Source: Thermogemmata fonticola
Lineage (GTDB): Bacteria > Planctomycetota > Planctomycetia > Gemmatales > Gemmataceae
Reading direction: 5' to 3'
NCBI RefSeq assembly: GCF_013694095.1
Contig: NZ_JACEFB010000010.1
Coordinates: 1-64,000, forward strand
DNA length: 64,000 nucleotides
Positions 8,485-52,215 of the stretch are shown here, one piece after another. Numbering within the stretch: the stretch's first letter is position 1; every line of letters begins with the position of its first letter. The notes below the pieces were generated by a model, which saw only the letters and a list, made by a program, of their open reading frames with translations, was not told where the DNA came from and searched no databases. The position numbers and the translations under genes are program-made.

Positions 8485-9354
8485 GAGACTGTTTCAAAAC
8501 CGCCGTAAGGCCAGATGAATGAAGCTCAAGTAGACCAGACCCACGTACATGAACGAGTCATAGCACCAACGAACCGCAAGGCCGCGGTCACCGTGAAGCC
8601 AAGCATGGGTCCGCTCGATCAACCACCTCCGCCGGTATCGCCGCAGCCGACGGCCATCGTTCCGCGACGGCCGCGACCGGTTCCGACGGTGCGGAATCAC
8701 CGGGACCAGCCCCGCGGCCTCGATCTCGTCCCGCAACGCGTCCGCGTCGTGGCCCTTGTCGGCGATCACGGGCGTGCCGGCGGGCACCTCCAGCGGGACA
8801 TCTTTCAGGGCCGGCAACAGCAGCTTCGGCTCAGACACCGCGGCGCCAGCGGCCGCCAGACCCAGGGGCAGGCCCGTGGCGTCGATGACGACCTCCAGCT
8901 TCATCCCTTTGCCAATCTTGGTTTTACCGACGTCGTCGCCCCTTTTTTGGCGCGGATGAACGTCGCGTCGGCGAACAGTTCGCTGAGGTCCACCCGACCC
9001 AGTTCGGCGAGTTGCTCGACCAGCACGGCCTGGATGTCTTCCAGGATTCCTTCGCGGGCCCACTCCCGCAGGCGTCGCCAGCAGGTGCTGCCCGAGGGCA
9101 GGTCGGGAGGGATGTCCTGCCAGCGTGCTCCCGTGCGGAGCAGCCAGAGTAGCCCCTCCAAGCACTCCCGGTCGTCGGCTCGTGGCCGACCGCCTTTGGG
9201 GGAGGGGGGGATGCTGCGGCAGCAAGGGGGCGATGCGTTGCCATTGCTCATCGGTCAACACGCGTTTGGTCCTCCGTGACATGATCGGCTCCTTTCACCG
9301 ATCATTAGAACAACATCACCGCTCCCAGCCAATACCCAGTTTTGAAATGATCTC
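8485..9354 (-). mobile_element. IS5-family insertion sequence (IS-A), decayed
   Basis: The element is 870 bp. Its imperfect 16-bp terminal inverted repeats are GAGACTGTTTCAAAAC at 8485-8500 and the complement of GAGATCATTTCAAAAC at 9339-9354 (13 of 16 match). TA flanks it on both sides (8483-8484 and 9355-9356), consistent with a 2-bp target duplication. Size, ends and two-frame transposase fit the IS427-like branch of the IS5 family. It lies inside a short minus-strand gene that it appears to have cut. Confidence 0.82.
8494..9282 (-). pseudogene. IS5-family transposase, frameshifted
   Basis: The protein starts MSRRTKRVLTDEQWQRIAPL, the usual opening of IS5 transposases. It continues in another frame with KGGRPRADDRECLEGLLWLL and returns to the first frame with VGKTKIGKGMKLEVVIDATG and the C-terminal DDE part (VIADKGHDADALR, then RRWLIERTHAWL). 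The first shift lies in a run of seven C on the coding strand near 9207-9213; removing one C restores a normal reading, so it looks like a one-base insertion. The second, near 8944-8949, is at an A6-G run (GCCAAAAAAGGGG), the type of site where this group joins orfA and orfB by programmed frameshifting. The TGA stop lies inside the left inverted repeat. Confidence 0.82.
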
Positions 9355-9696: not shown

Positions 9697-9800
9697 GGGT
9701 GTAGCCAGATTTTCTGGGGGTTCTCTGCCGGGCAGCTCTGCTAGTCTGGGGAAACACCTCGCGGGTTCAGCCCCCACCCCCAGAGAATCTAGTTACACCC
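9697..9800 (+). repeat. 104-bp palindrome-ended repeat, copy 1
   Basis: First of five copies in the window, all 104 bp and all in the same orientation. The ends are near-perfect inverted repeats of about 24 bp: GGGTGTAGCCAGATTTTCTG at the left and the complement of GGGTGTAACTAGATTCTCTG at the right. A 58-bp inner part is identical in all five copies; it includes the short palindrome CTGCCGGGCAG. No coding potential is shared. It looks like a MITE or a REP-type element. Copy 2 follows after 8 bp. Confidence 0.88.
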
Positions 9801-9808
9801 GAGGCGGA

Positions 9809-9912
9809 GGGTGCAACCAGATTTTCTGGGGGTTCTCTGCCGGGCAGCTCTGCTAGTCTGGGGAAACACCTCGCGGGTTCAGCCCCCACCCCCAGAGAAT
9901 CTAGTTACACCC
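9809..9912 (+). repeat. 104-bp palindrome-ended repeat, copy 2
   Basis: In tandem with copy 1, separated by 8 bp (GAGGCGGA). It differs from copy 1 only in the left arm (GGGTGCAACC against GGGTGTAGCC); core and right arm are identical. The pair stands between the RHS remnant and the small gene at 9355-9676. Confidence 0.88.
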
Positions 9913-30369: not shown

Positions 30370-30440
30370 TTGGGGATCCAGGATTCGAACCTGGACTAAC
30401 TGATCCAGAGTCAGTCGTGCTACCGTTACACCAATCCCCA
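30370..30440 (-). tRNA. tRNA-Gln (anticodon CTG)
   Basis: Minus strand. The acceptor stem TGGGGAT pairs with ATCCCCA, the D-arm contains GTGTAACGGTAGCAC, the anticodon arm is ACTGA-CTCTGGA-TCAGT with CTG at positions 34-36, and the T-loop is GTTCGAATC. CCA is not encoded. It reads CAG codons. Confidence 0.95.
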
Positions 30441-30508
30441 GCACTTGCGCTACCACTATAGGCCTCTTTCGCCCTCAGGGCAAGAGGATTAGTCACCAAA
30501 GGTGGTGC

Positions 30509-30612
30509 GGGTGCAACCAAATTCTCTGGGGGTTCCCTGCCGGGCAGCTCTGCTAGTCTGGGGAAACACCTCGCGGGTTCAGCCCCCACCCCCAGAGAAT
30601 CTAGTTACACCC
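30509..30612 (+). repeat. 104-bp palindrome-ended repeat, copy 3
   Basis: Between tRNA-Gln and tRNA-Pro. The left arm begins GGGTGCAACCAAATTCTCTG; the 58-bp core and the right arm equal those of copies 1 and 2. GGTGC occurs immediately left of it and one base to its right, possibly a short target duplication. Confidence 0.88.
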
Positions 30613-30722: not shown

Positions 30723-30797
30723 TCGGGCTGACTGGATTTGAACCAGCGACCTCTTGGTCCCGAACCAAGCGCTCTAGCCAAGCTGAGCTACAGCCCG
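30723..30797 (-). tRNA. tRNA-Pro (anticodon CGG)
   Basis: Minus strand. The acceptor stem CGGGCTG pairs with CAGCCCG, the D-arm is GCTCAGCTTGGCTAGAGC, the anticodon arm is CTTGG-TTCGGGA-CCAAG with CGG at 34-36, and the T-loop is GTTCAAATC. CCA is not encoded. It reads CCG codons. It lies between repeat copies 3 and 4. Confidence 0.95.
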
Positions 30798-30915
30798 TCA
30801 AATAATGGGTCTCAGTAGCAGATCTTCTGCATAGCATCTCTGAGTCGTAAGTATCCTAGCGGCAAGCGGGGAAAAGTCAATGCGGCCTGAAGCTCGCCAG
30901 AATGCGGGGGTGCTT

Positions 30916-31019
30916 GGGTGCAACCAGATTTTCTGGGGGGTCCCTGCCGGGCAGCTCTGCTAGTCTGGGGAAACACCTCGCGGGTTCAGCCCCCACCCCC
31001 AAAGAATCTAGTTACACCC
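30916..31019 (+). repeat. 104-bp palindrome-ended repeat, copy 4
   Basis: Downstream of tRNA-Pro. The left arm has one altered base (GGGGGG for GGGGGT) and the right arm has AAAGAATC for AGAGAATC. The 58-bp core is unchanged. Confidence 0.88.
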
Positions 31020-51364: not shown

Positions 51365-51468
51365 GGGTGCAACCAAATTCTCTGGGAGTTCCCTGCCGGG
51401 CAGCTCTGCTAGTCTGGGGAAACACCTCGCGGGTTCAGCCCCCACCCCCAGAAAATCTGGTTACACCC
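51365..51468 (+). repeat. 104-bp palindrome-ended repeat, copy 5
   Basis: The most diverged copy in its arms: left GGGAGT for GGGGGT, right GAAAATCTGGTTACACCC. Even so, the 58-bp core is identical to that of the other four. TTGCAGA lies directly to its left and again 2 bp to its right, which may mark the insertion site. Confidence 0.87.
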
Positions 51469-51483
51469 GGTTGCAGATAGAAG

Positions 51484-52215
51484 TTAGTATCGAGTTGCAG
51501 ATAGAACAGTTTGGAGGATAGATTTCGCCTGTTCCTCGTTGAGGTCTCCCAAGGTGGGGAAGTGCCACGGGGGGGCTAGGTGTTTCAAGCGTCGATAAAC
51601 TACCACTGTGGCGGCATCCTTGTCCTGGACGCCCCAAGCTGTGAGGTTTTTGGAAGTGAGGGGAGCTAAACCCACGGGAATGTTGGCGATTTTCATCGCC
51701 TGAATCCAATCCTTGATTTCTTGCACGTAGCGATCGCGGTTTTCGTCATCCGGGTATTCCTTATCCGCCGTCACAGCGATTTCCGTGCCACTGTCGTCCG
51801 TGAATTTGACCGCTTTCTCCCCCGCTTCAGTCCGCAGGAAGAGAATCAGACCATTCAATTTATCAGCGCGGTACTTAGGCATGACAGCATCGAGATCACG
51901 GATCAGCTTGCCCACCGGGGTGTCCGCGGTGATCTGTTTGGGATCCGCTCGTAGGAAGAGGATGAATACCGGAGACAAGCCGTATTCACAAACGTAGCAA
52001 TGAATTTTCCCCGATCGATCACGCGGATCCCGTTGCATTTTGCCGTCTACGGTTTGCGGGGGGAATCGCCCGTCTTGGACGATGAAAGCTCGGAGAGTAG
52101 ATGGGACCATTTGGGCAGAGGCGGGGGGTGTTTTGGGCTGCGTCCGGCCATCGGGATGGAAAGCTAAAAAAGTCAATCCGCTAAGAACACCACAGATGAC
52201 GGCAATCCCGCGCAT
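51484..52215 (-). CDS. Secreted thioredoxin-like hypothetical protein
   Basis: A 243-aa protein starting MRGIAVICGVLSGLTFLAFH (signal peptide or anchor). A CxxC pair in HCYVCEYGLSPVFILFLR is positioned after a strand-turn as in thioredoxin-like folds. YRADKLNGLILFLRTEAGEK and NIPVGLAPLTSKNLTAWGV (a cis-Pro-like region) follow. GGAGA lies 6 bp before the ATG, with a TATAAC-like -10 box upstream. Redox activity is inferred from the fold only. Its 3' end carries a 13-bp direct repeat (GTTGCAGATAGAA at 51470 and 51494) next to the mobile repeat copy 5. Confidence 0.7.
   Translation of the reverse strand: MRGIAVICGVLSGLTFLAFHPDGRTQPKTPPASAQMVPSTLRAFIVQDGRFPPQTVDGKMQRDPRDRSGKIHCYVCEYGLSPVFILFLRADPKQITADTPVGKLIRDLDAVMPKYRADKLNGLILFLRTEAGEKAVKFTDDSGTEIAVTADKEYPDDENRDRYVQEIKDWIQAMKIANIPVGLAPLTSKNLTAWGVQDKDAATVVVYRRLKHLAPPWHFPTLGDLNEEQAKSILQTVLSATRY

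Follow-up and report, generated by a model that had tools for sequence, protein, structure and literature searches.

A 104-bp MITE of Thermogemmata fonticola, probably moved by an ISKra4-family transposase and placed at a fixed distance from predicted promoters

The repeat in the window and in the host genome

The window analyzed here comprises the first 64,000 nucleotides of contig C10 from Thermogemmata fonticola, whose assembly (G000; 4.81 Mb, 61 contigs) is 97% complete. Five copies of a repeat, each exactly 104 bp and on the + strand, were located at 9697..9800, 9809..9912, 30509..30612, 30916..31019, and 51365..51468 (copies 1 to 5). Copies 1 and 2 stand in tandem around an unstranded 8-bp spacer, GAGGCGGA (9801..9808), and copy 2 is identical to a copy on another contig (G000:C15:50769-50872). 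Positions 29-86 of the element (58 bp) were invariant in all five copies, and the variable sites were positions 6, 8, 12, 16, 23, 25, 28, 87, 89, and 95. Thus, the original prediction of five 104-bp copies with an identical inner 58 bp and varying arms was correct for the window when remeasured. As the only family of long direct repeats in the window, the element cannot be attributed to chance. It was also rightly described as MITE-like with inverted ends, since arms of about 24 bp and no transposase gene were found, and as lacking a known name; we know of no named element with this sequence. An open reading frame for an IS4/IS5-type DDE transposase lies near copy 1 (8494-9282) and is, as far as seen, unrelated to the ends of that copy.

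When the core was searched against the full host genome, 29 copies of 103-105 bp were counted, together with a solo end at C17:15917. The single orientation originally reported held for the window (5/5) and failed genome-wide, where 16 copies pointed one way and 13 the other, so an orientation rule was rejected. On contig C10, all six copies, including one tandem pair, share an orientation, which is unremarkable among 13 contigs. The full 104-bp element was absent from the 58 related genomes searched, namely, one genome of the same genus and 57 other relatives. In the genome of the same genus (G001), a 26-bp match to the core (E value of 7e-4 among 59 genomes) was taken as chance. Synteny between the host and G001, the only same-genus genome, was broken at both loci tried for empty sites.

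Three tandem pairs were found in the host genome, all with spacers of 7-8 bp (window 9697-9912, G000:C6:22134-22347, and G000:C24:10-225), and at G000:C17:15805-15940 a copy stands beside the solo end. The spacing of tandem copies and of the copy with a solo end was always 7-8 bp, a regularity that points to insertion at ends already present or to dimers arising from a circular intermediate. The spacers on C10 and C24 differ by one base. The left flanks of two copies, L023 and L029, share about 70 bp, and both of these insertions sit in copies of another repeat.

A second MITE, of 172 bp, with the same ends and an unrelated core, occurs at G000:C2:146668-146839 and G000:C18:50750-50921, and 8-bp duplications are visible in this family. 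An element of the same length with similar ends is present in another genus (G064:C1:3306896-3307067). In a genome from another family of the class (G215), a closely similar end, GGGTGTACCCARATTTTCTGGGGG, occurs at 46 sites, which probably reflects a separate burst of elements of this type. The end motif is also present in viral contigs.

Variation in the core

The core had been proposed to be under selection. Across the 29 host copies, 18 of 58 core sites are variable and two copies carry core indels, so that the many genome copies with core variation named beforehand as evidence against the proposal do exist (about 29). Singletons were found at 13/58 core sites and 8/46 arm sites (P = 0.63), and this equal rate shows that young mutations strike the core freely. 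Variants common to at least two copies were found at 5/58 core sites versus 13/46 arm sites (P = 0.017). The core is unmutated in 13 of the 29 copies, and the chance that five random copies would all carry the unmutated core is as low as 0.011, albeit in a post hoc test on the very set that drew the reader's eye. The apparently frozen core is therefore mostly a sampling effect, and no function of the core is required by the evidence. More generally, a core can look conserved when the copies compared come from a single window.

The haplotype CCAGATTTTCTGG was found on arms of both sides and also in the 172-bp element. Because the same arm haplotypes recur on both arms and on the ends of the 172-bp MITE, exchange among ends would explain the excess of shared arm variants better than constraint on the core. 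In one copy (L017; G000:C3:297534-297637), right-arm sequence lies on the left and nearly left-arm sequence lies on the right; with respect to the core, the arms have traded places, an arrangement that recombination could produce by inverting or exchanging either the arms or the core.

Functions had been suggested for the core. If the 104-bp hairpin were transcribed and acted in regulation or as a structured RNA, the core would be kept by selection while the copies were moved or duplicated in some way. The invariance among the five window copies is in line with this, as is the folding, which on both strands lies well below shuffles (z of -2.7 to -6.7). However, the inverted arms alone account for the folding. 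Arm pairing across the 29 copies was lower than in shuffled columns (500/500 shuffles at or above the observed value on the + strand and 493/500 on the - strand), compensatory changes were almost nil, and column shuffling revealed no covariation in the stem on either strand. With singletons no rarer in the core, full copies in 0 of 58 related genomes, and no Rfam match to the MITE (two tRNAs were the only matches in the window), a structured RNA is very unlikely. Strand-specific retention of G-U pairs on the - strand, striking in four folds, was discarded as a signal; it reflects a few old end differences and shows no excess over shuffling. A protein-binding or recombination site (att-like or IHF-like) that keeps the core constant is hardly credible. 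The identity of the five window copies is the one observation in its favor, whereas the 18 variable core sites and two indels contradict such constancy, and the 172-bp MITE, a 125-bp MITE, and others with the same ends insert likewise with unrelated cores or lengths.

Target duplications and an insertion sequence with matching ends

Exact flanking duplications of 7-9 bp were found at 11 of the 29 copies, 8 of them exactly 8 bp, versus a mean of 0.1 and a maximum of 3 for shuffled flanks; at the other 18 copies, no exact 7-9-bp duplication was present. The element thus combines a length within 50-500 bp (104 bp), terminal inverted repeats (arms of about 24 bp), the lack of a transposase, target duplications, and ends common to an autonomous element, and it is a MITE. 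Like other bacterial MITEs (Correia elements, MITEAba12, and QMITE2; PMC10969869), it is short, has no open reading frame, and has inverted ends, and it shares with them target duplications, many copies, and, probably, a borrowed transposase. It differs from them in its ends and target preference.

A pattern search for paired inverted ends in 95 genomes of the bacterial family identified one pair, spanning 1,453 bp, in Gemmata sp. IIL30 (G062, contig HG799462.1; G062:C1:1457145-1458597). The ends of this IS are identical to the 24-bp MITE ends at 20-22 of 24 positions, and two overlapping frames of 110 and 354 amino acids lie between them. The second frame matched the NCBIfam ISKra4 model NF033572 with an E value of 2.4e-51 and 175 bits, which is below the curated cutoff of 205 bits, and it also matched Pfam UPF0236. 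The two-frame layout recurs in a relative, L083, and an A6-7G run is present at the frame overlap in both (A7G in the G062 IS). A -1 frameshift at such a run has been described for the ISMich2 group (PMC3942029). The G062 IS resembles this group in its two overlapping frames and A7G run; promoter targeting is not reported for ISMich2. Within the ISKra4 family as a whole (p-MULT 4, with the ISKra4, ISAzba1, and ISMich2 groups; PMC3942029), the likeness is that the MITE ends match a Gemmata IS with an ISKra4-model transposase, and the difference is that the 104-bp MITE has no transposase gene.

A full-length IS with matching ends, whose internal deletion explains the core, had been named in advance as evidence against the original proposal. 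An IS with such ends exists in G062, but the core cannot be derived from its interior; no similarity above shuffles was found between the two, and the core as a remnant of the IS interior was rejected. With an interior unlike that of the IS, the MITE belongs to the kind of element that shares only its ends. A transposase whose ends match the arms was found in Gemmata sp. IIL30 and not in the host. The host assembly, at 97% completeness, contains no full IS with matching ends and no transposase of its clade, and the best host relative of the matching-clade transposase is 32% identical and has different ends. This absence from the host counts against movement of the MITE in trans by an IS of the G062-type clade, which is nonetheless probable.

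An ISKra4-like IS of the host on contig C7 (G000:C7:80597-82438; L078:2098-3939) was considered as the mobilizer and rejected, as its ends (GGTCTGACCAGAAATTCTGG) differ. Its transposase open reading frame contains a tandem Ala/Ser/Thr-rich repeat. Contigs C14 and C18 end in fragments of this IS, which is thus probably multicopy and breaks the assembly.

Distance of insertions from predicted promoters

An E. coli-type sigma70 matrix was scored outward from each junction and compared with random sites in the same loci; the promoters are thus predicted, not mapped. On the left side, the -35 boxes peaked at a distance of 24-27 bp from the end of the element (best z, 7.2); on the right side, the peak lay at 25-27 bp (best z, 5.1), and a lone z of 3.1 was seen at offset 48. 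No excess was found at 13-17 bp. Sixteen of 50 sides, from 15 distinct copies, fell in the top 2% of random positions, where 1 was expected; at about half of the copies, a strong predicted promoter at the fixed distance was missing. Promoter-like examples are TTGACA-17-TATACG (L011), TTGACA-18-TAATAC (L012), and TTGACA-17-TATGGC (L009), and two or three of the predicted sites lead into tRNA genes.

In the window, the sigma70-like promoter TTGCCC-17-TATAGT (30455..30483, - strand; score, 12.2; P = 0.0001) lies to the left of copy 3, and 25 bp separate its -35 box from the junction. This promoter reads into tRNA-Gln(CTG) (30370..30440, - strand), with the -10 box ending 14 bp before the gene. 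Downstream of copy 4 is tRNA-Pro(CGG) (30723..30797, - strand), and the TTGACT box directed toward it (30875-30880, - strand) lies 35 bp from the junction, outside the 24-27-bp rule. To the right of copy 5, at 26 bp from the junction, is a promoter-like TTGCAG-18-TAGATT (51495..51524, + strand; P = 0.0036), and no + strand gene was identified just downstream of it. The match at copy 1 may be false, since it sits inside a likely open reading frame start.

The same 24-27-bp distance was found for related MITEs of 125-196 bp in two other genomes (G064 and G073; L065-L069) and for the 172-bp host copy on C18. From the transposase-side end of ISs to the -35 box, the distance was 27 bp in L083, 27 bp in L093, and 26 bp in L097, and TTGACG was read by eye at 26 bp in L094. 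The reference IS, that of Gemmata sp. IIL30 (L060/L082), gave 19 bp, and distant ISKra4-type ISs of the same planctomycete family (L085, L090, and L101) gave 15-16 bp with the same scoring. Among the few ISs compared, this clade difference in promoter distance is suggestive.

A recent burst of a randomly inserting MITE, with the promoter signal arising because surviving insertions are intergenic, is unlikely. Most copies are indeed intergenic in a rough open reading frame test, as expected from selection against gene damage, but an intergenic bias would not confine the peak to 24-27 bp on both sides, nor would it place MITEs and ISs of other genomes at the same distance. In addition, promoter targeting is known for ISKra4-group transposases: members of p-MULT 3 and of the ISKra4 group land upstream of sigmaA promoters, at 13-17 bp, and elements with near-perfect ends occur in both orientations (PMC3942029). 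In an independent survey, ISKra4 and ISLre2 elements showed a preference for positions 50-250 bp away from the closest gene (PMC9208149), which fits promoter targeting.

Thus, the 104-bp MITE has very probably been moved by an ISKra4-family transposase that tends to land it 24-27 bp from predicted -35 boxes, with no function needed for the core. In the proposed mechanism, a Mutator-like (p-MULT 4) transposase of this family, supplied now or formerly by another element, would recognize the inverted ends of about 24 bp, move the MITE, and create the target duplication of about 8 bp. It would prefer sites upstream of sigma70/sigmaA-type promoters, leaving the element end 24-27 bp from the -35 box, and may read promoter DNA or bound RNA polymerase. 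Either orientation would be possible at a promoter, since the two MITE ends are nearly identical. The MITE resembles the ISKra4 group with near-perfect ends (PMC3942029) in having near-identical ends and a predicted promoter on either side. Its -35 distance of 24-27 bp differs from the 13-17 bp reported for ISKra4 and other promoter-targeting p-MULT elements (PMC3942029). TnGBS and ISLre2 (p-MULT 3) likewise insert at a fixed distance upstream of sigmaA promoters, and they differ in their mostly single orientation, their distance of 15-17 bp, their nature as large elements or full ISs, and their transposase family.

In the open-access literature searched, no MITE derived from ISKra4 elements was found to be described as targeting promoters. 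What is new here is the MITE family itself and the longer fixed distance; promoter-targeted insertion of relatives was known already. We propose only tentatively, as a possibility that may well not hold, that a planctomycete ISKra4/ISMich2-like clade and its MITEs keep a distance of 24-27 bp from the -35 box on insertion, about one helical turn more than the described promoter-targeting p-MULT elements. If this is true, the transposase would dock from the same face but reach further, onto either promoter DNA or the RNA polymerase bound to it, and the MITEs, as they spread, would supply tRNA and protein genes with ready-made upstream regions. On the main reading, the puzzling repeat becomes an ordinary mobile element whose landing rule is unusual. 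Such a promoter-targeting MITE offers a short natural substrate on which to test how promoters are found by Mutator-like bacterial transposases, and the shift of about 10 bp relative to its relatives is a clean handle on the targeting mechanism.
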